Assembly: GCA_030295235.1 (NCBI GenBank)
Contig: AP026128.1
Location: forward strand, 1,240,001 to 1,304,000
Direction of reading: 5' to 3'
DNA: 64,000 nt
Source of the DNA: Fistulifera solaris
Lineage: Eukaryota; Bacillariophyta; Bacillariophyceae; Naviculales; Stauroneidaceae
Made by a program: the position numbers and the translations under genes. Positions within the stretch are counted from its first letter, which is position 1, and every line of letters begins with the position of its first letter. The notes beneath the pieces are model-generated. The model was not told the origin of the DNA. It did no database searches and saw only the letters and a program-made list of their open reading frames with translations. Positions 1 through 46,581 of this stretch are shown in pieces.

Positions 1-3000
1 CACCGACATATCAAAGTAAATACGAACACGCGGACTGGAATGACTGGGTTCAATCTACCAGTAGTCGACGAAACAATGCCTTGTCGGATACTTTTCAGAG
101 GAAAGCATCTTATCAAGTCAAGACGACGTTAGTGATTGAAACAAATACAGAAACACTGAGGATACCAATCAGCGGGACAAGCGTTATACAAAATAAATAT
201 GGCATACCGAGCATGATTATGCTTGGCAGTAGAGACAAAGAGGAGCCACCGCAGCAGGAGCAACTATTCAATCATTCTGAAGATGCCTTTGTCGTGAGTC
301 GAATTCATCCTCAGCGAGGGGGGGATGAGCTACACTGAGCAGGACACTTTTACGAAGAGGTCAGATTGCTTTGATGTTTATATTAGACATCCATACCATT
401 CGAGAAGATGGAGTGATCGCTGGTACAGCGAAGAGCCAGATATCGATCCTCCTGTGGACAGTCTAGAGGTGAAGGAAGTTTCGGTAACTAGGCCCGATCT
501 AGTGGGTCTGAGATGGAATCGCGAGAAAGGCGTTTCAGCCGACAAAAGAGCGGTGTTACGCAAAAGTATAAGTCGATGGAGTGACGGTGGACCTTTGACT
601 GTTCCTCCCAATAACATGCCTCATTATTTTGTTTCGGTGTGTGCGCTGACTGCTGACGGCTTTAGCAGTGATAAATCGGCAACTTTTGAATCCGGTGACG
701 AATTAATCGATTCTTTTCAAATCAGCCTGGGAGTATGGGTTTTTTGCAAATAAGGACGTCGCACGATAATTTACTAGTCTCTTTGGAGAAAGAGCGGATA
801 GTGACAAGTGAGGATGCTTCAATTCAAGAAATTAAGGAAGTCGATGATCATTATCAACCAAGGAGCGGGCAAGAAATCGAATCAAGTCTTTCGAAGGCGA
901 CCGCGGCTAGTCCGATTTTATTGCGTTCACTGCCTGAAAGTCTGCAGCACGTATTTGTCTTGGCACATGATGGACATGTCGGCGCAGCTAATGAGACGTT
1001 TACAATTGGTTTAAAGAATGAAAATCATGACGGCATCAGAATTCTTCGTGCATCTATAGTCACGACGTCCCGCTATGATGGTATAACAATTCGCTTGAAG
1101 GAGTTCAACTCCACCTTGTCTGAAATAATGTCAGGGCAGACTTTCGTTTCTGACGCACTATCATTTGAGTACTCAGTGGACTGGGATATCTTGCTTCGAA
1201 ATTCACCTTTGGCTGATTTTGCTATCGAAGGGTCTATTATTATCCGAGCTGCTGCTATGGAACGATCAAAGCAGGGAATGCAATACAATGCAGACACCTT
1301 TCGCAACTCTATCCTTCTTGAGATACCATGGTGCATTCGTGTCGTAACTGGGAACGTCATCCTTGCAACTGAGAAGAAATCCGCTGGCTTTTTTGAAGTT
1401 GGGGCGTCCAATAAGTAATCGATTCAGTACTGTAAAGGGGTCTTCTTTCCTTTTGATCTTCGGTCGGTTGCTGCATTGAATCAGGCAACTCTCATCGTGG
1501 AAAACTTGGTCGTGTTATCTGACATGGGAAATTTGGTTCGGTTGAACGATGTTCGTATCATGGATCAATTGGAAAATCCACAACAGGGTAGGCCTGATAC
1601 CGTATCGCACTGCTCCCGGCTAGAGGCCAAAATAGCCAACGAAGTATCTTTTAGGGAGGACGGACGACTAGGACAAATCGCTTTAACGTATCGCCTTCTT
1701 AGCGAAGAAAACTGGCAAAGTTCGGATCAGGGGCTTGGAGATTTGCCGACATGGTGTTATCTCAGCTTTACGACTGTGCCTAGCACAGGCCAACATATAA
1801 CACCGATTGTCGTATACCGTGGTTCCATTGACGTCTCTGGAAATCCTTCATTCACGACCGCAACGCATGAAATGAAATCGAACGTAGAACTTCAAGATCA
1901 ACACTGGAATCATGCAGTTGGAATAGAAAGTATTATCGACTTGTTGAATACTGCTCAAGTTGGATCGGCTTTTTCGGCGCTAATCAACGGTTCAAGAAGT
2001 ATAAGGGACGCTCCGAAATGGGAGAAGAATGATTTGAAGCGATATTTCTACAATCTTAATGGAAATATCGGCAGGCGGCCCTATTCCAGACTCGTACCAG
2101 TTTTGTTAAACGTAGGGGCAATTCTGCAGAGTGATGTTGAATCTGTGCCGCTGTACTTGACAAATCACAATCCAATTCCAGTCTCTGTATCCATTGATGT
2201 GAGTGAAGTTGAGGGGTTGGCCGTCGTGTTAGGGCAAGACCAGTCGACTGGAAGTGGTGATGGCAATCATCCCCTAGACTATTTGCTAAACAAATTTTTG
2301 AAAACAGAAACCAGTATCGACGAAAAGAAGATTTTGGATGGGACATACGCTGGGCATCCTATAGACGGATTGCGCCAATTTCTGCTCAGGGATGTCGCAG
2401 TCAACAAATACTTTGGTGGATTCTCATTTCGAGATGCAGCTTCGTTGAGTAAATACGCTGTTTCACGATCGTCTTTCCTAAGCGGCCTTTTCCAAGATAG
2501 TGCCTACGAAACATTTCATCGCAAAGGAGCGGATGCCTATCGCGAAGGAGGAGGTTGTGGAACCCGCGACTTCCCTGAGACGTATGGTCCGTTTTCTCGC
2601 AGCGTAAACGGAGGTGATGTTGTGCTTGGTCCGATCGTTTTATCAGAAGATGGTAAAAAGGTACGGAGAACGAAAGTTTGTCGCGGAGCCGATGAAAGAA
2701 GTGTCAGGATCCCCCCTGGTGGATATGTGAGATTTGATGTCTTCGTCCGATCCCCTCCCGCTGAAGTGCTCGAACAAGACATAACTAGTTTCTTATCCAC
2801 TGGTTTGCTGCTTTCGACCGATCATGGGCAAGTCATACCAATACTGGCAAATTTTGAAGCGTTGCAGGGCAAGTTAGACGTCTCGCATATTCCCTCGCCA
2901 ATCATAAGTTCTGAATCTCGCGATGGAATTATTCAAGTCCCAATTGGATTATTTAGTAAGCCATCATCGGAAACCAGAGAATCAAAGCCAATTTATATTC

Positions 3001-6000
3001 CACCAACTGTCAAAGACGATGGGCTGTCTGTGGCTCATGTTGCTGTATTATCCAGGAATGTCAGCGATGTTAACAGCGTTTCGCTTTTTATGCGATCGTC
3101 TTTCTCTCAGGATATCAAGGTACGACGCATTGCAAGCTGCAATCCTTGGTTTAGAGTTGAGCTGTCAGACACCACGGGTGACATTCTTCCGGCTTTTGAT
3201 CCGTTCTTGGGTGTAAATATTGGAGCAGTTAGCAGTTATGCAATGTGCAACGGTGAAGCAGCATTTCCATCGTTCTTCCGTTGTGTGACGAGTTGGCTAC
3301 TTCAAAGGGCTGAGTTGCAACCGAGAGGCTGTGGCCCGCTTCCGCTTAGTGATGGTCCTCGTAACTTCAAACCCGACGTTCCCGCCGGCATTGCTTTGGA
3401 TAAGGTAGTTCAAGTTTTAGATAAAGCAATTTTAGCGTTCGAGCAGACAGACACAGATACAACAAGCGATCACAACAGTGTCGAAACGGATGGCTTTGAT
3501 TATCCACGCTACCCCTTCAAGAATCGATCCGGTAATGGAATCGTGTCGCCCAGTATATTACGCGCGGCAGCTCAAACGTCGGAAGCCTGGAAAACGATTT
3601 CCGATTTGGGATTGGATGTCATTGCCACGAGTCTTCGAGCAATAATTGAATATAATGGGACATCAGGTGTTTCAGCTTCCAATGCTAGTTTTAAAGTGCA
3701 AGAGGAGAACCCGGTCTTTGGGGTGGTAATTCGAAATGTGACAGTTCTATCAACGCTGGAAGTACCACGACTCGTCGATTTTTCTTCGACACGCAACAGA
3801 TTTCCGTATTTCGCGCGTGGTGACAATTACCTTCCTTCTACTCTGAATTTCCCAGCAACATTAGTAGGCTCAGTGGCAGCAATACACATCCCTCTTCACA
3901 ATCCAACGGCAGTCCCAGTCCGTGTTAGGCTGACTGTTCCTCCATTCGCCAGAGGTTCTACTTCGAAATATCGGGAAGGACCTTTCGCGGATGCTGCCGT
4001 GAAGAAGTTTATCGGTCATTGGCGACCGCCTTACATTCAAAGTAGCTCACCATATAAAATGAGCACAAGAGACGAAGGAAACCGATTTTGGTGGGGACCA
4101 GATACAGCTTACTTTCAAGCTGATTCGAATGGAGATATAACAAGATCACACCAAAATGTCACAATCAAAGCCGGATCGGGAGCCAAATTCACTCTTATTG
4201 ATCCATCAGTCATGTTCAATATTGCCTTTTTAGCGGGCTGCGGAAGGCGGTGCGGGATTCTTGAAGATGGCAGTACACAAAAACGAACTCCTTTTGTTCA
4301 TGGATTAGTTGGTTTGATACCGATGAGCCCGATCGGTGCTTCCGCTGCCGCCGATCATTTTTTGCTTGGTCGAGGGCCGACGCTGTCAAAGGAAAATAAG
4401 AATAGGTTGGGTGACGGATTTGAATCCGGGGGTTCGATGATGCTCAATGGGGAGGGCCCTCTGCATTCGCTATTGCCAAGGAAGGGCTCAATGAAATCAT
4501 AATACCACCGTTTGGAAAAGCGGAGCTGGGTCCGATATTCTTCCGCCCCCCTGGGCGTTCTACCAGGCTTGGTTGTGCTGCCTATTCGGGACGGTCGCCT
4601 CGTGACCACTGTGAACAAGCAACCTTTGAATCATTGGTGTTCCTCGAGAACTCGCTCTCTGGAATAGAAAGAATTGTACTAACCGGGAAATCAATGTGGA
4701 CCAAATTAGAGTTCGTGGACCCTGATCCGATGCCCGACGAAGATGACTCCGGCGATATTATTTTTCGACACGGCAAACCGAGTTTGATGTTCCCCGGAAC
4801 AGCATTAATCACTGAAGGCTACCCGCGTCCCGTTGTGAAGCAGCTTTTTCTTCATAACTTTGGCGACTCAACAGTCAAATTGACTAAGATGTCAATTATT
4901 CACGAGGAATTATTTTCGTCAAACTCTTACTTGTGCAGCGCCGGAGGTTTCGACTTGCTTACTACGTTTCGGAGGGACGCTCCTTATGCGGTACTTTTGC
5001 CTGGTGGCAATTTTTCTTTGTCCATTCAGCACCGACCGGCATGCAACAAACGAACGGATTTTGTGACACTTTCGATTGAGTACTCCCATATAGAGACTGA
5101 AAGCAACAACGCTGTGTACACATCTTCAAAGCTCCCATTTCAGAGATATAGTGTGAACCTTACAATTGGTTATGATATGTTAGACTGGGAGTTTCGATCA
5201 TGCAAGCCTCTCAGGACGATTTGGTCTTCCGAGAGCTCATGTCCGGGCAGTATTGACTCAGCTGCCTCAACAAACTACGTTGCGGACGAAAATCGTGTTG
5301 TTCTATCGACACTATGTTTCGTGTTACTGAAGTTGTTTGTTGTAACTATTGTGATTAAGCAAATGTTTGGGCGTTCCGTGGCTCGACGTACACAGTCTAT
5401 CACGTTTCATCAGTTTTTGCAACGCGGCCAAAAGGGGGAATCGATGCTGAACCTCGCGTTGGGCCATGAGATGGGCAAAGACTGGTTTGCCGCTTTCCGA
5501 TGCTTGGCGCGAGTTGAGCCGTCCTCGCTGGATCTGCAAACGCTTGGACGAGAGCAAACGCGGCAAATTATCCTGCATCGATATCGTATGATGAAAATTC
5601 AACCACCGCAGTTTTTCACAGGAGCTGGGATCTTCAGTAGAGAGATGCATGGTACTAACAAGCAACCGGGATCGATGCGGACTCTTAGTGATGGTTTGTT
5701 TGGGAACTTTGTACCCTCGAAAACTCGAAATTACGCGCGCTTTCCGTGTCAACTTGGATGGCGAACGGCTACAGCGAGAGGTATTATCCAAAGCACCACG
5801 TTGAATTCTACGCTGCATGCGCTAGAAACAATTAGTCTCTACGAGCGTCGAATCGCTCAGCAAGCATCTACTGATGACAGTCAGGGTGATCAGTCCTTTG
5901 ATGCAAACGAAAGCAGCGACATCAGTATTACGTTAAGTAATGGTGCTGAAACGATGGAATCGTCGCCGAAATCCGAAGTTTCTTTAGACCACGAAGATAA

Positions 6001-7168
6001 CGCAGGAATAGTTCCGTCCTCTGCAGAGATAAAAGCTCTTTCAACAAGCGTCGCTTTGGTAGATAAGAAGGTTTTTGAAGATGAGCACGAGGCAACGGCG
6101 CAGTTTGAGAAACTCACTCCGGTGAAATCAGATCTAATCTCCGTAAAGCCACCCGACCAGCAAAATAAAGTTCCAAACACAGCACAGAAGAAAAATGAAA
6201 GGGCATCTAAGGTGTTCGCAGAAAAGAATGCTGTCCAGCTATCGAAAAGACCGACGGCTAAAGATTCACGAGAAACGACGGAAGATGTCAAATCGATCAA
6301 TGTAAAAGATTCGAACCATGGCAAAATTTCAAAACATCAAAGATCTAGCGAGAATCGCAAAAAAAGAGCCACACAAAACGACACGTCAAAACCAGGTTTG
6401 GGAAGCTCAACTAACAAGGGCATAACTTCGGAGACGAAAAAAACTCAAACTGGCGATAAGGGTCAGACCCAAACAAATCCGTGGAAATTATCGACGTCAA
6501 TTGAGGGCGGAGCACGCGACAAAGACACTACCCAAAATATTCGACCTCCACCAGGATTGGCACCTCCACCAGGTTTCAGCGGTCATACTTCGTCAGAAAC
6601 TGCTGTCGTTACAAACCCGGACTCCCACTATCACCAGCTCTTGAGGGATGCAGCTGCAGCGAGTTCGGCTTCCAATCAGCATTTCAATCATACCGAATTG
6701 CCGAGTCCTACTGTATTCACGGCTGAACATCCGCCGCTTCCAAATTCACCGTCCGATCGAAATGACGATCATTTTCTCACCCAAGCTTACGCTCATCGTG
6801 CGACGGAAAGTTTTCATATTCCAGAGAGCACGGAATTTGATGTCATGGCGTTTTTGGACGACATTTTGAATGAAGGTAGTAAGGCGAATAGTGGCGCTGC
6901 GGATATAAGGGAAAGTGGACCAGAAGGGATCCTTCGCGAGGATGAGCCCGCATTCTCACCAAACCCTTGGGCGACATCTGATATTTATCAATCTCGCGCT
7001 GCTGCGTATGGAATTCTAATTGAAGATGAAAGCACGCGTGGAACAGAATCGAGTGATCTCCCTTTGCTCACACCCGAAGCTATTCTGTCTTCTGCCGTTA
7101 GCAACGACGACGATGAAAGCGTATCTAACGCAGCTGCTTTTTTCTCAGACTTTGGAGAACAGGGATAA
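1..7168 (+). CDS. TMEM131-like secretory-pathway membrane protein, 5' end outside window
   Basis: The frame is open from base 3, so the N-terminus lies before the window. The coding path is 3-324, 325-745, 746-1397 or 1415, about 1485-4432, and 4433-7168. Breaks fall in a G7 run (318-324), a T6 run (740-745) and a G5 run (4428-4432). A one-base change at each restores reading, for example VWVFLQIRTSHDNLLVSLE at the T6 break. An in-frame TAA at 1416 would be removed by an 87-nt GT-AG intron (1398-1484) with a pyrimidine tract at 1441-1454. The very long N-terminal part looks lumenal and built of repeated beta domains (HNPTAVPVRVRLTVPPFA; NEIIIPPFGKAELGPIFF), as in TMEM131. One TM segment lies at about 5299-5361 (VLSTLCFVLLKLFVVTIVI). 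A charged, Ser-rich cytoplasmic tail with PPPGLAPPPGF follows. Animal TMEM131 binds TRAPPIII and aids cargo export; the role here is inferred from that. The family call rests on layout and scattered motifs. Confidence 0.68.
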
Positions 7169-7923: not shown

Positions 7924-8556
7924 GGTGACCTTTCTTGGAAGCTTTCTAAAGAAAAGACTCGATAGACGTCACAGACTTTCGCTAATTGCAGGAGAAACTC
8001 GATACTCCCAAACGCACTTAATTGAAGTGCGAAAAAACAGGCACGGGGAGATTTTTTTCTGTGAAGAGTGTTATAAACATCCGCAATGATAATCATTGCT
8101 CGTTCGATAGACGATAGATAACGATCAACGTGTTGCGTGTTGATCGCGCTTAGTCATCGTCGCGAGATGACGTCGTGGTCACACAAAAGCGCGAAAGAAA
8201 AAGTATGTAGTTGAGGTGCGTTAACCGTGAACGGATTTCCAGTCGTGCGCAATTAGTTCTTTTTCGTGCGACCATGAAGCAACGTGACGTAACACGTAAA
8301 CACTAAACACGAACGCCATAACTTTCTCAACATATCTTACTCGAGACCAAAAGCAAGATTTGACACTGATTGGAACTCCAAAACGTAGAAAAGACCACAG
8401 ATGCACTGGTGCGAATGTCTACGTACGTTCCACGTAGCTCTCGCAGGAAATGTATCGACAGAGGACAGCCCGGATATTGGGTAATTTCGATCACACCCTT
8501 TTCGGCGCCTTTTCGACACCAATGTCAACAAGACTTTGCCCAACATCGAGGGATGT
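7924..8556. other. intergenic, with one perfect inverted repeat
   Basis: No convincing gene is seen. Short frames here have no family features. An 8-bp perfect inverted repeat, CGATCAAC / GTTGATCG with a 9-nt loop, lies at 8122-8146. It sits about 200 bp before the 5' end of the minus-strand EF-hand-like gene and could be a regulator site. Confidence 0.4.
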
Positions 8557-9070
8557 TTTGCGTCGCTCAGAGATTTTTCGTGCATTCCAGAAATTCTGGA
8601 ATTTTCAACTGTGGTCACAGAAAGGTTGTGTTGACGTTCCAGAAAATCTTGAATCGGTGTTTTGCATCCACCAAGCGTCCTGTATGCCCTGCAAATATTC
8701 CGGTATCTCTGTTTTGCGCTACACATAGATTTTGTGCACGGTCCAGAATTTCTGGACTCGATGTTTTTCGGTCACACAGAAATCCTGTCTATGTTCCAGA
8801 ATTTCTGGAATCGGTATTTTTGGTCCTACAGCAACTCTGTGGGCGTTCCAGAAAAGCTGCATCCGGTGTTCGAAATCACACAAATATTTTCCGAACGTTC
8901 CAGAAATCCTGGAATCGGTGTTTTGCGTCGCTCAGAGATTTTCGTGCATTCCAGAAATTCTGGAATTTTCATCTTCGATCACAGGAAGGTTGTGTTGACG
9001 TTCCAGAAAAACTGGAATCGGTGTTTTGCATCCCGCGAACGTCCTGTGTGCCCTGCAGATATTCTGCTAT
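8557..9070. repeat. 52-bp-period array with palindromic core TTCCAGAAnTTCTGGAA
   Basis: Near-perfect 17-bp palindromes, or decayed forms of them, start at 8585, 8637, 8742, 8794, 8846, 8899, 8949 and 9001. The spacings are 52, 105, 52, 52, 53, 50 and 52 bp. The slot near 8690 holds a decayed copy. Between cores the unit often reads ATCGGTGTTTTGCATC. A segment of about 150 bp is duplicated 364 bp (seven units) apart: 8557-8705 and 8921-9070. The periodic sequence lacks stops, so three overlapping plus-strand frames (8370-9186) stay open. They show repeated FQKFWNF-like peptides and no domain, and I do not call them genes. Confidence 0.85.
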
Positions 9071-9366
9071 GGTGGTTCCCGGTCAGCCAATCTGATGTCT
9101 CTTTGTGGACAGCCAGCCTGAATCAGTTTCTAGTGGCTTACCAGCATATCGCGAGAGTAAGAACCTACCACGTGGATAGGACTTAAAATCTTATATCAAA
9201 TTTATTTATTTATAAATAGACTAGTGAGGGACGCCATACATGTTTTACCCGCCGGTGAATGATTTCATGTCGCGTGGGTCGCTTGCATGGCAATACCGAG
9301 TTGTTTATTAATGTATTCTACAGATAAAGGATAGATTATCGTCTCAGGTTTCTCGATTGAGTTCCG

Positions 9367-12778: not shown

Positions 12779-14217
12779 CTACCTTGTGAAACACATGTAG
12801 CCATAGAGCAATGTCAACATGGCATACCCCAGTGTCATACCAGTATACAATCCGACCAAATCCATTCTCCAATATTTGAGACAGAAGAATACTCCGGGCA
12901 CTTGACCGCCCCAACTAGCAAGGAAGCCGTACCAGAATACTTCGCGAGTCCGTCCCATACTGTACGGGATTCGCTCAATTGCAATCGATAAATTCATTAG
13001 TACCAGTGTCGTCATAAGGGCCACTTGGCTCCATCCAGTTCCGCCAAGAATTGTTCATCTGCCGTAAAGAGGCGACCTAGTAGTCGTATATTTCCGACAA
13101 TGAATCCGCCCAACAACGTCAAAATGACTGCACTCATATAAATTCCCACTTCCCCCGCCTGTTTTGCACCTAGCGCATCTTGTTTCCCCAACCGTATTGT
13201 CGTCTGAATCCCCGCGGCGCTACTGAGTGCACTAATTAGAGTTAAGACAATCCACATGACGCGGTAACTTGTGTTGAATACAGCGACGGCTGTTTCCCCC
13301 AGATACTTGGCTACGAATGTCCCAATGACCGCCACCCTCCAGAAATCCGAAGCCGAAGCGAGCGCGGCCGGTACATATAGATCCAAAAACGTTCGAATGC
13401 GTGTAGAAGTGACTTCGGACCATTTCCATCCACCCCAACAGGGTTGATGCAGTTGTTGCTTGTGAATATAAATGATCCATAAAAAGGCCAACTGAAAATA
13501 AACAACACACGTCGTAACCCACGGACAAGCTCGAAATCCGTAGCCCTCCCATTCAGGAATACCAACTCCGAGTACAAAAACGAGTCCAGCGATTAGATTC
13601 AATAGCATAGCAACGGTCGCTGCATTGACTTCCGGATGCATGATTCGCTGTGCTTGAAAGTATTGTGAAAGTTGTGAAAAACCCAACTGCGCGGGTAAGC
13701 TCAACGACAAGACTCGTGCATAATATCCCGCCATGGAGGCGGCCATCGATTCTGTTCCCATTAGTGTCCAAAACCACGCGGTCGTTTGCCAAATGAGCAT
13801 AATCAGAAGTACTACACCCATGAGCACCCATAAACTGACTTGCAAATAAATTCCCGCCAGTTTCGGATTTCCCGCGCCCACGGCATTCCCACAGAGTATA
13901 CTCAAGACACGCGCTTGTATAAATACGCCCGTGCACATGGTAAAGAGATCCGACAAGGACGAAGCCACGAGGGCTTGGGCACTGATATGTCCCAACAAAG
14001 CCGAGTCGGTCGTTTTCATGCCGACCCACGAAAGCATACTTCCGAAAATGGGAATCCCGAGTATTATGGTATCGTACGCATCTTGCCACGCGGATGGTCG
14101 TAGAGTCTCAGACGTTATTGGTTTTGAGTCGTCTTTATTGTCTAATTCGTCATCCTGTGTGGGGAGGGCGTCAAACGCGATCGATTGAATGAGCGAACCT
14201 TTCTCTTCGTCGGGCAT
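12779..14217 (-). CDS. MATE-family multidrug/toxin efflux transporter
   Basis: About 480 aa in total, in two frames. Residues 1-400 are read from 14217 to about 13018 and the rest from about 13017 to 12779. The break lies at a CCC (GGG on plus, 13018-13020); one extra C gives AKWPLMTTLVLMNLSIAIER and joins the frames. A cytoplasmic N-terminus is followed by about 12 hydrophobic segments. MatE signatures are visible: MKTTDSALLGHISAQALVAS near the start of the first half and GNAVGAGNPKLAGIYLQVSL after it. The second half starts at LDLYVPAALASASDFWRVAV. These carriers export organic cations, toxins or flavin-like molecules using a Na+ or H+ gradient. Substrate and membrane are not deducible. Confidence 0.85.
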
Positions 14218-14400: not shown

Positions 14401-14969
14401 TCCAGATTTTCTGGACAACTGAAAATACCAAACACCCAGATTTCCTGGGAACGTGAATACAACTGGTCCAGATTTTCTGGACCAACGTAAATACCACACT
14501 CCCAGATTTGCTGGGAACGTAAATAGTACTGGTCCAGATTTTCTGGACCAATGTAAATACCACTCACCCAGATTTCCTGGGAAAGTGGAAATAGTGCTGG
14601 TCCAGATTTTCTGGACAACTGTAAATACCAAACACCCAGATTTCCTGGGAACGTGAAAATACAACTGGTCCAGATTTTCTGGACCAACGTAAATACCACA
14701 CTCCCAGATTTCCTGGGAAAGTGGAAATAGTACTGGTCCAGATTTTCTGGACCACTGCAAATGCCACTCCCCAGATTTCCTGGGAACGTGAAAATACAAC
14801 TGGTCCAGATTTTCTGGACCAATGTAAATACCACACTCCCAGACTTCCTGGGAAAGTGGAAATAGTACTGGTCCAGATTTTCTGGACCACTGAAATACTA
14901 CACTCCCAGATTTCCTGGGAACGTGAAAATCGGCGTGCGGTGTTTTCACGCTCCCAGGAAATCTGGGAG
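14401..14969. repeat. 34-bp-spaced array of two alternating palindromes
   Basis: Palindrome A (TCCAGATTTTCTGGA) starts at 14401, 14467, 14533, 14601, 14669, 14737, 14804 and 14872. Palindrome B (CCCAGATTTCCTGGGA) starts at 14435, 14501, 14567, 14635, 14703, 14770, 14838 and 14905. Spacing is 32-34 bp, giving a 66-68 bp dimer, and the order A/B never fails over eight dimers. A further B-like copy in the other orientation lies at 14951-14969, and weaker half sites reach 15045. Linkers are AT-rich and also repeated (GTAAATACCACAC; GTGGAAATAGTACTGG). The frames seen on the minus strand (14300-14949) are by-products of the repeat. It lies between the 5' ends of the MATE and EXECUTER-like genes. 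Confidence 0.93.
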
Positions 14970-15069
14970 AGTGATTGTTACACGAGTGTTTCCAGAAAGT
15001 ATGGTCGTGGTAATTCCACGTTTACACATATCCAGAAAATCTGTCACGCACACTCGCTTCGCTCCAGAC

Positions 15070-15329: not shown

Positions 15330-16583
15330 ATGAAGAAGCTCAATACAGTCGTGCTTGCACTGTCCGTGTCGCCCGCCGTGGCTTGGTTGTCTCCTTCCTC
15401 TACGAATTCTGTGTCATTGACCGTCAACGCGCGTTACTTCACTCCACTTCATGACAATACCTGGTTACTTCACGCCAAGAATAATCAAAAAGACGAAGAA
15501 GAATCCAAGAAACTACCACAGTCTCTCAAAAGCAATAAAAACAGCGGAAAACAATCTTTGGCGAAAGGCATGGAATTGAAACAAATTCGGGACGAGTTAC
15601 GAAATCTGCGAGAATCTCTCATGTGGGCCGAAGCGATGCACGACGAAGAAAGGATGCAGAACCTCATTCAACTGATTGATTGTCACGAACAACGGGATCC
15701 GGAACTCGTGTATGCCCATACGCTGACAGCAATCGCGCAAGCACAAGCCAAGTTTGATTGCGATCCCGTCGAAAAAGGACGAGAGATTCAAACACTCAAA
15801 CAGAGAGCGCAAAGCTTGCGCTCGCAGTTGCCGCGGTTTCAAATGGAAGGACTTTGGGTTGGAGCGTACGTATGACATTCGTTATTGTTCTCTGCGTTCC
15901 TTTGACATTCCCGTTAACACAGAATTGTTTCTCTTTCACATAGATACGGCGAAAATGACCTGCAGCTGGTCAATATCACGTACCGCGGTGATACCTTGGT
16001 AGCAACCAAAACTACCGGAGACACCAATGTACCCCGCGGACAAGTCAGTTTCACGGCCGATCTCAGTCCCTCGCGTCACAACAACGAGACGACCGTGACG
16101 CGCTACCAAGGACAAGGACAAGTGGCGCAACATGGCTTTGTGCAACACAAATTCGTCAATGGGCATCTATTGTTGCAAGAAGACAGTATCTACACAAGTG
16201 ATACGGATTCTTACAAAGGCTTCTCGTTCGTGTGGTACGCGGAACGACAACACAAAGTCGTCTTTCAGCGACCCACGCCACAACAAACACTGAATCTATT
16301 GAGAGATACTCTAAGTCGAGAAGATGAATTGGAGAATATGCGAACGCATTTGACACGGTGTTTAGATTTGGATGCAACCGATGCACTGGCACGACAGCAT
16401 GCGGGGAAACTCGATGACGAACCGTTTCGACGCATTCGGCGACTCGACGAACTCGAACAAGACGATCCCGTACCGAAGAAAGAATGGGGTCTCTGGAGAC
16501 GCTATTTAAGTGAAGGGATTTGGAAGAATATACTATCTCGAAAGAAGGAGAACGGATGGGATGACTTGGAAATGGGATTCTGA
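15330..16583 (+). CDS. EXECUTER-like plastid protein, two exons
   Basis: Exons are 15330-15865 and 15944-16583. The 78-nt intron has a GTACGT donor and ATAG acceptor, and the join is in frame (VGA|YGENDLQL). The start at 15330 gives a signal peptide and cleavage motif (VVLALSVSPAVA|WLSPSS), the A-x-A-W form used for complex plastids. Next comes a charged helical region (LKQIRDELRNLRESLMWAEA). It is followed by a beta-rich domain with NVPRGQVSFTADL, YQGQGQVAQHGFVQHKFVNG and GFSFVWYAE. This order matches the EXECUTER1/2 domain (VPAGQVTF ... KGQGRIA). EXECUTER proteins of plants sit at thylakoids and relay singlet-oxygen stress; related proteins of algae are little studied. The C-terminal helical tail (DELEQDDPVPKKEWGLWRRY) is not placed. 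Confidence 0.62.
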
Positions 16584-19977: not shown

Positions 19978-20710
19978 CATCCGTGTCGTCGACTGCCATT
20001 TTCACTATAATGGTAAAGTGTAGGTTCTACGCGATCGCGACCAAATTTCAGTCAGCATTCAGGATCGACATAATGAAACGACCTTGAAACGCCACAAAAG
20101 TGGTCCTCAAGCAAAAGCGTGAAGTGTATAATCAAATGCCATGGAAATATGAATGTATGAACTAACTATTATCTTCATTCGAGATGCAGCTATTTGCGGC
20201 GAAAAGCATCCGTATCGTCGACAGCCATTTTCACTATGATGGTAAAGTGTAGGTTCTACGCGATCGCGACTAACTCTTAGTCACTTGAAACGCCACCGAA
20301 GCAATGAGAGCACCAAAGTTGTCCACAAACAGAAGCGCAAAGTGTATAATCAAATGTCATAGAAATACCAATATATGAACTACGGAGTAACTATCATCTT
20401 CATTCGAACGCAACTAGTTGCGTCGAAAAGCATCCGTATCGTCGACAGCCATTTTCACTATGATGGTAAAGTGTAGGTTCTACGCGATCGCGACTAAATC
20501 TCAGTCACTTGAAACGCCACCGAAGCAATGAGAGCACCAAAGTTGTCCACAAACAGAAGCGCAAAGTGTATAATCAAATGTCATAGAAATACCAATATAT
20601 GAACTTACTATCACCTTTACTTGAAACGCAACTATTTGCGTCGAAAAGCATCCGTATCGTCGACTGCCATTTGTCACTATGGTGGTAAAGTGTATGTTGT
20701 ACGCTATCGC
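19978..20710. repeat. tandem repeat, about 218-229 bp unit, 3.3 copies
   Basis: Units begin CATCCGTRTCGTCGACWGCC at 19978, 20207, 20431 and 20649 (spacings 229, 224, 218). The fourth copy stops near 20710. Each full copy contains GGTTCTACGCGATCGCGAC, whose core CGCGATCGCG is a perfect 10-bp palindrome, and an imperfect inverted repeat around CACTATGATGGTAAAGTG. Copies 2 and 3 are nearly identical; copy 1 is more diverged. No ORF is shared by the units. Confidence 0.9.
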
Positions 20711-45557: not shown

Positions 45558-46581
45558 TTGTCAACATCATCTTCTGGTAACCCCAACAAAGAATAATGAA
45601 TACTGTTCGACGCCGTTGACGACAAGCTGGCTTTCTCTAGTGCAAAAAGCTTGGCGGACATCGATGCGATGGATGAAGTGTTGTTACACCCTTCTCTTCG
45701 ACTTCCGAGCTTGTCGATTTGCGGGCTTTGCAGTCAACGAACGGCTTTGGCTGCCTCAGCAGATTAGCTAGGGTGCGATTGCTAAATCACATGGTGGTTG
45801 ACAACTTCAAGCGCGAAAGTTCAAGTCCTGTAGCTGCTTGGTGATTAGAGATTCTTTGCTATCGCTAATTCGCTATCACTGGAACGATCGACGTCGTTGA
45901 ATGATGGTGGAGAACGGAGAACAGGAGCATGCTTATTCGTTAGAGACACCCGCATGTTACCGTCATGGAATTTGAATTATAACAAACAAAGGATGCAACT
46001 GGCTCGATACATGATCGAGTCCGTCTTACCTCGTAACAAAAGTGACATCCGATTCCGGCGCCTATTCAAGATTTGCAACGGATCAATCTCTTTTGGAAGA
46101 AACAGGCTGTCACTTGAACCCTTTCTTGCGATACTAACGACGTCTTCTATATCGAAAGTGTATTTGTCGTGAATCTGGGCACTTAGAACTTTCTTACTCC
46201 ATAGACTACTTTTGCACTTCGGTGCCGAAAAGAGATAAGTTAGCAGGTACTGTACGAGTATGAGGTAGCTCAAACCCACTGCGACTCGGTAGTGTAGTAT
46301 AGATTGTCAAGAAGATATTTTTGTATCCCTTCTTCACGTACACAGAAGATCTGGGTGAGTGGTATTTTGACGCTCCCAGAAAATCTGGGCGCAACATAAA
46401 AGGCTTCAAAGCGCTGCTACGCCGCTCGCATTCCCCATTTACTTGTACATCGAACAATAACTATTAGACAGCAAACCTTCGATCTGGGTTGCCCTTTCCA
46501 GCAATACTTGCCATCATAATAAGTTAAAAGCAAGACAAATACCCGCACGACAATATCAGGTAGCGAGGGTTCACAAGTATT
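45558..46581. other. intergenic; relic of the 34-bp palindrome unit and a possible short ORF
   Basis: A reverse-oriented single copy of the 14.4-kb array unit lies at 46347-46392 (CAGATCTGGGTGAGTGGTATTTT then CCCAGAAAATCTGGG). At about 45595-45770, ATGAATACTGTTCGAC followed by a clean 52-codon frame (VDDKLAFSSAKSLADIDAMD; LCSQRTALAASAD) could be a small gene with one indel after the ATG, but nothing else supports it. 45758-45838 loosely resembles tRNA-Ser (see rejected). Confidence 0.4.

Follow-up and report, generated by a model that had tools for sequence, protein, structure and literature searches.

The palindrome array described here is, judged by comparison with the rest of the assembly, one of at least about 40 copies of a minisatellite named A/B after its two palindrome types, and these copies form a branch of a larger superfamily that is dispersed through the nuclear genome of the diatom Fistulifera solaris. 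The array lies in a stretch of 64,000 nucleotides (hereafter, the window; contig AP026128.1, positions 1,240,001 to 1,304,000), which was analysed at its full length. The units lie head to tail (34/68 bp in the A/B arrays and ~50–57 bp in others) and recur at many unrelated loci, which makes these arrays minisatellites. Both the superfamily and its pattern of conservation, in which the palindromes change less than the sequences between them, are well supported. The explanation that is tentatively preferred is that a homodimeric protein binds the palindromes, so that the dispersed minisatellite superfamily would multiply its putative docking sites.

The array and its neighbouring genes

Each of the 16 palindromes of the window array has the form CCAG-N5-CTGG, and types A and B alternate strictly. 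The palindromes start at positions 14402, 14436, 14468, 14502, 14534, 14568, 14602, 14636, 14670, 14704, 14738, 14771, 14805, 14839, 14873 and 14906, and the 15 steps between them measure 34 bp (eleven steps), 33 bp (two) or 32 bp (two). An initial annotation of this DNA had described 16 palindromes alternating without a miss at steps of 32–34 bp, and the starts, types and steps were all recovered. A and B are consensus types: N5 is ATTTT in all eight A palindromes of the window array, while in the eight B palindromes it is ATTTC (six), ATTTG (one) or ACTTC (one), B being the less perfect palindrome, with A.C at an inner position. When the 530-bp array was shuffled 2000 times (mononucleotide shuffling), a mean of 0.0045 such palindromes was obtained, with a maximum of one, against the 16 observed. 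Tandem Repeats Finder gave periods of 34, 68 and 135 bp over the array. Beyond it lie decayed units in inverted orientation (Table 1), which were recognized by reading the reverse complement by eye and from a minus-strand match at contig coordinates 1254943–1255022; the inverted B at 14954 is the 17th palindrome of the array. Since these inverted units continue to ~15060, the boundary at 14969 that had been annotated falls inside the inverted tail.

The array was also said to lie upstream of both a MATE gene and an EXECUTER-like gene, and this holds: the two genes, on opposite strands, both point outward from the array between them. The start codon of the MATE gene is ~184 bp from the array and the ATG of the EXECUTER-like gene, at 15330, is ~400 bp from it. 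Among the matches listed for the MATE protein, the closest named sequences are those of the pennate diatoms Seminavis robusta (56% identity) and Nitzschia inconspicua (55%), and the highest identity of all is 93%. The second ORF of the EXECUTER-like gene matches PF12014 (E 1.1e-12), which we take to be the EXECUTER domain, and the first has no Pfam family above the cut-off.

Table 1. Features of the window, in window positions.
Feature	Positions	Strand	Description
Second superfamily array	8585..9015	-	Unit of ~52 bp; palindromes of the TTCCAGAAATTCTGGAA type and decayed ACAGAA..TCTGT-like ones in alternation
MATE transporter gene (coding ORF)	13012..14217	-	PF01554, E 1.8e-27
A/B array	14401..14930	+	16 alternating palindromes; 68-bp higher-order unit made of two ~34-bp subunits
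Decayed inverted A/B units	14931..15060	-	Inverted B at 14954, inverted A-like palindrome at ~15030
EXECUTER-like gene	15330..16583	+	Two exon-like ORFs, 15330-15875 and 15918-16583 (ORF bounds)
Solitary palindrome TTCCAGATTTTCTGGAA	43472..43488	not assigned	
Two A/B-like palindromes	46343..46388	-	33 bp apart, reverse orientation

Abundance and dispersal in the genome

The whole genome (51.7 Mb in 61 contigs) was scanned for exact CCAGA-N3-TCTGG, a palindrome that the initial annotation had proposed to look for in pairs at ~34-bp spacing. This pattern occurs 4309 times, compared with 30 occurrences of the reversed pattern, a control that is also a palindrome and has the same base composition, and with 40.8 expected from the base composition of the window; type B palindromes (CCAGATTTCCTGG) are mostly outside this count. 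The partner palindrome ACAGA-N3-TCTGT occurs 1329 times (control 31). The 3-bp spacing is strongly preferred, and other spacings of the CCAGA/TCTGG arms are present but rare: 112 sites have spacers of 0–2 bases (control 22) and 171 have spacers of 4–8 bases (control 81), in a comparison that covers the CCAGA/TCTGG patterns. With the window array as query, at least 94 matches were obtained, on 16 contigs among the matches listed; grouped by hand, they give the ~40 A/B places, a lower bound because only 40 of the 239 candidates were scored. The large contigs C4, C5 and C6 have no A/B array among the matches listed, and superfamily palindromes of other kinds do occur on C5 and C6 (L020). This unevenness is either the real distribution of A/B arrays or an effect of the number of candidates scored.

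In a blind sample of 200 kb (20 pieces, picked without looking), TCCAGAA-N1 (7) and TTCCAGA-N3 (6) were more frequent than any other inverted repeats of 7 bases. A CCAG-N5-CTGG site was present in 8 of the 20 pieces, some of these being chance matches outside the family, and the sample and the window together hold 45 palindromes in clusters and 7 that stand alone. A viral origin was considered and rejected: exact GGTCCAGATTTTCTGGACC was found in one IMG/VR stretch and TTCCAGAWWTTCTGGAA in 64, at one site each, and these were taken as chance.

Twenty of the 39 other A/B places were fetched, so that with the window 21 loci were compared. Their flanks are unrelated, except that two loci form a duplicated pair, two have a short repeat in common and small matches occur, mostly as spill-over from the arrays; the arrays start and stop at varying phases. 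The same comparison speaks against a transposon common to the surroundings of the arrays, as unrelated flanks and variable ends fit the dispersal of array pieces that have no fixed ends better than they fit a transposon with defined termini. In a six-frame search of the unspliced sequence PF01797 (Y1/RAYT transposase) had no match in the genome, and it had matches in 5 of 14 control genomes. The duplicated pair (L030 and L033, at C13:791800 and C14:755800) has its A/B arrays within a segment whose flanks are 91–92% identical, so that changes in the arrays could be measured there against the divergence of the flanks. The short repeat is common to the 5' flanks of L045 and L048; it measures 68–78 bp, is 82–84% identical and occurs twice in L048.

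The arrays of the superfamily that are not of the A/B kind have units of ~50–57 bp that combine two palindromes in alternation, one of TTCCAGAATTTCTGGAA or GTCCAGAATTTCTGGAC type and one of ACAGAATTTCTGT type, with steps of ~19–23 and 30–34 bp; some have higher-order periods of ~213 or 360 bp. The eight that were analysed together are all on C1 and were chosen from the matches listed for both palindromes. At L135 the partner mostly has the unpaired form ACAGA-N3-TCTGG. Given that the alternation of two palindromes recurs in these arrays, it is not peculiar to the window array. In the arrays examined, the two half-sites of a palindrome are inverted copies of (K)TCCAGA or ACAGA with three bases, mostly A/T, between them; in type B, CCAG and CTGG are separated by five bases. 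A common palindrome core is thus found in arrays that differ in linkers and periods, and the T.A pair beside CCAGA-N3-TCTGG is retained at 118 of 121 sites (non-A/B loci and window). A solitary long palindrome with a P2-like core and extended arms, GTCCACAGATTTTCTGTGGAC, lies at L010:6594-6614, and three TCAGA-N3-TCTGA palindromes lie at steps of exactly 148 bp at C13:955968-956276, a rare form that was apparently multiplied in its own right.

Conservation of the palindromes

That the palindromes themselves are kept, beyond the repeat unit as such, had been proposed from the window array, and the divergence among loci bears this out. The comparison used 149 A/B units, obtained at 21 loci from 174 matches, of which those of at least 60 nt were kept. 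Between-locus divergence is 0.048 in the A core and 0.112 in the B core (a value that includes the variable inner base of B), and reaches 0.210 in one linker and 0.330 in the other; the A/B palindromes thus diverge ~2–7 times less than the linkers. Within loci the corresponding values are 0.051, 0.089, 0.169 and 0.256. Because a unit search could favour intact cores, each array was also aligned over its whole length with a circular consensus, and the identities in this wraparound alignment are 0.943 for the A core, 0.936 for the B core (excluding the inner base, whose identity is 0.61) and 0.837 and 0.767 for the linkers. Among 167 full units there are 27 reciprocal nearest pairs, which differ at 26 of 721 core sites as against 72 of 1036 linker sites (Fisher p 0.003, with sites treated as independent). 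The core-to-linker ratio is ~0.5 for these recent differences, compared with ~0.15–0.53 in the long term, and since the recent advantage of the core is just ~2-fold, part of its long-term conservation may be a filter that acts when units multiply. The linker words GAAAATAC and TAAATAC are also fairly conserved at some positions.

Symmetric and one-sided changes

The palindrome types differ from each other symmetrically, and within a type each half mostly changes alone. At ten paired positions of the A/B core (six of A and four of B, with the inner B pair 56/60 excluded), 80 one-sided changes, two complementary double changes and one non-complementary double change were counted. Outside the core the variable A/B positions have more double changes, for example at columns 13/35 (8 complementary, 6 not), and in the non-A/B arrays 66 one-sided changes stand against 9 double changes at paired positions, 3 of them complementary. 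An apparent covariation of the flanks was discarded, as it had pooled different palindrome types; after a split by type, pairing at flank positions 1–8 is not above that of shuffles except at A position 6, where 49 of 109 are paired against 37.6 expected (z 3.0; unique palindromes, by type).

Between types the picture is different. At the position just outside CAGA, matched pairs are C.G at 4309 sites and A.T at 1329 sites genome-wide; T.A (59, control 23) and G.C (73, control 44) reach only about twice the control, and are rarer than the unpaired A.G and C.T, which number 704 (389+315; controls 17 and 52) against 2471 expected from the margins. Two positions out, in the context of TCCAGA, G.C (1274) and T.A (1466) give 2740 matched sites, against 246 mismatched (118+128) where 1487 were expected. 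These are counts of sites and not of independent events, and T.A and G.C are two steps from the common types while A.G and C.T are one step away.

The one-sided changes within types argue against selection for base pairing, as in a hairpin, and in favour of homodimer half-sites or of few founders. Similarly, a stem under selection should make use of every kind of pair, so that two half-site specificities or few founders explain the pair counts better; descent from few founders could produce the symmetric pattern between types. The claim of the initial annotation that A and B keep distinct compensating bases therefore stands for the differences between types and fails within them, and the lack of a compensatory excess, which was to count as refutation, is found in the core within types and not between types. 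It had also read the symmetry as implying either a dimeric protein or hairpins: the spacing and conservation fit a dimer, and compensation as evidence for hairpins is not supported.

Position of the arrays relative to genes

Gene context was examined for the window and 10 extended loci of ~5 kb each, chosen mostly as the higher-scoring and simpler ones; genes were assigned from ORFs and Pfam, so start codons are ORF-based and promoters putative. Of these 11 arrays, nine precede a gene with Pfam support and two (L038 and L042) an ORF that has no name or a weak match. Seven loci look divergent, four are tandem and none is convergent; depending on the orientation shares assumed, the chance of finding no convergent locus among 11 is 0.04–0.17, and that of at least seven divergent ones is 0.008–0.10. 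Five divergent loci have Pfam support on both sides, namely the window (MATE and PF12014), L029 (Cwc15 and SRP54), L031 (mitochondrial carrier and GH72), L032 (formate-nitrite transporter and TFIIF beta) and L035 (rhomboid and myosin). The other two have WD40 (L037) or GCK (L045) on one side and a long ORF without a name on the other. The tandem loci comprise an ORF without a name followed by anoctamin (L046), RNase PH followed by RING (L047), MRP-L27 followed by a 162-codon ORF without a name (L038), and aldo-keto reductase, with matches below the Pfam cut-off (L042). At all 11 loci the arrays are outside gene-assigned ORFs, and some stop-to-stop frames without assignment cross them. Of the remaining 10 loci, for which ~400 bp of flank was available, eight have outward-starting ORFs as read by eye, without a family search (L030, L033, L036, L039, L040, L041, L043 and L044), and L034 and L048 gave no clear ORF reading within that flank.

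What maintains the palindromes

The mechanism that is most likely, if still tentative, is one in which each palindrome would be a duplex binding site for a putative homodimeric protein, and an array upstream of a gene would offer clustered docking sites, with effects on the promoter or its chromatin. The arrays would spread through tandem amplification and the dispersal of pieces without fixed ends, and copies that retain their palindromes would persist in promoters. The fixed N3 spacing and the conservation of the core fit a dimeric DNA-binding protein; against docking, the symmetric differences between types (G.C/T.A at position 2, and A versus B) exceed what one fixed site would need, and the possible filter on amplification, the chance levels of the gene orientations and the uneven spread of the A/B places over the contigs weigh against it as well. 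Close behind comes the possibility of a selfish minisatellite, whose palindromes drive their own duplication and spread (through stalled-fork hairpins, template switching or the reinsertion of extrachromosomal circles) with no host function, promoters being simply tolerant or open. Such an element would account for the many A/B places with mostly unrelated flanks and variable ends; the palindromes do fold when single-stranded (A: -7 kcal/mol, z -4.35), one-event palindrome correction would explain symmetric changes between types at several positions, and the fall of the core advantage to ~2-fold for recent differences points the same way. However, the core still differs less than the linkers between nearest-neighbour units, palindrome correction is rare within types in the core, and the preference for exactly three bases is probably stricter than fork hairpins require.

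Other explanations are less likely. The TTCCAGAA type contains the TTCnnGAA element, which would make the palindromes targets of a heat-shock factor. By inspection, two such dyads lie within TTCCAGAATTTCTGGAA, and there is a precedent in an oomycete, also a stramenopile, whose heat-shock factors bind gapped and ungapped TTC/GAA arrays (PMC11267843). Like heat-shock elements and other clusters of transcription-factor sites, the arrays consist of clustered dyad half-sites upstream of genes. Unlike them, the diatom sites number thousands and lie in satellite arrays. The proposal is improbable, since by inspection the A/B consensus has no TTCnnGAA, yet both window types have the common CCAG/CTGG core (A also CCAGA-N3-TCTGG), and the inner GAA and TTC of TTCCAGAATTTCTGGAA are 1 base apart instead of 2. 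Even less can be said for arrays that are transcribed into stem-loops or small RNAs acting as RNA: types A, P1 and P2 do form short perfect stems with triloops (under DNA folding parameters) and the arrays adjoin genes, but compensatory changes within types are rare, two of the four pair types reach only about twice the control, arrays in either orientation relative to the gene occur among the four tandem loci, seven of the 11 loci are divergent, and an Rfam scan of the window gave no match at the gathering threshold. Ordinary minisatellite drift with an unconstrained palindrome is the most improbable of all; it agrees with arrays that are tandem, variable, dispersed and show little compensation within types, but not with the unequal divergence of core and linker or with the recurrence of one core in arrays of different linkers and periods.

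Comparison with known systems

The TCAST-like elements of Tribolium are dispersed euchromatic satellite arrays near genes (PMC3411249), and they resemble the diatom arrays in being short tandem arrays near genes on many chromosomes or contigs. The diatom arrays differ in that they alternate two palindromes, which are kept while the linkers drift, and in forming families with a common core. A different likeness is to the bacterial REP/BIME elements, which are clustered, alternating, extragenic palindromes of high copy number, and among which modified REPs with their palindromic features preserved are also reported (PMC2817692). In contrast to these, the diatom arrays are nuclear and eukaryotic, with no match to a Y1 (RAYT-type) transposase in the assembly; the A, B, P1 and P2 consensus sequences have no GTAG/CTAC foot (by eye), and the palindromes are ~13–19 bp long with a short A/T-rich centre. 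No description of such arrays in a diatom was found among the open-access papers listed.

It is conceivable, although doubtful, that the superfamily is a eukaryotic counterpart of BIMEs that planted thousands of paired homodimer sites (KTCCAGA-N3-TCTGGAM and ACAGA-N3-TCTGT) and co-evolved with a putative dedicated protein. This protein might, on the same speculative footing, be derived from a transposase or be a transcription factor. Under such a reading the sites would lie in promoters at least for the A/B branch, and their spread would perhaps rewire promoters or chromatin.

Tandem repeats are usually regarded as drifting filler. Here, the palindromic word of a repeat is conserved amid changing surroundings in thousands of copies, beside ordinary cellular genes where this was checked. 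If a protein does bind it, the superfamily would show clearly how satellite DNA can carry a site with a regulatory or architectural role across a compact eukaryotic genome, and promoter rewiring by satellite spread would become a testable question. If no protein binds it, the superfamily would be a good natural system for the study of palindrome-driven minisatellite amplification.

Other features of the window

The two arrays of the window were not taken as coding repeats, since neither of their periods, 68 and 52, is divisible by 3; an ORF across 8415-9095 has no NCBIfam match. Two long overlapping ORFs at 1419-7168 (+), of 1027 and 914 aa from stop to stop, have no Pfam match at E 0.01. A separate tandem repeat, with a period of 224 bp and 2.8 copies, lies at 20093-20710.
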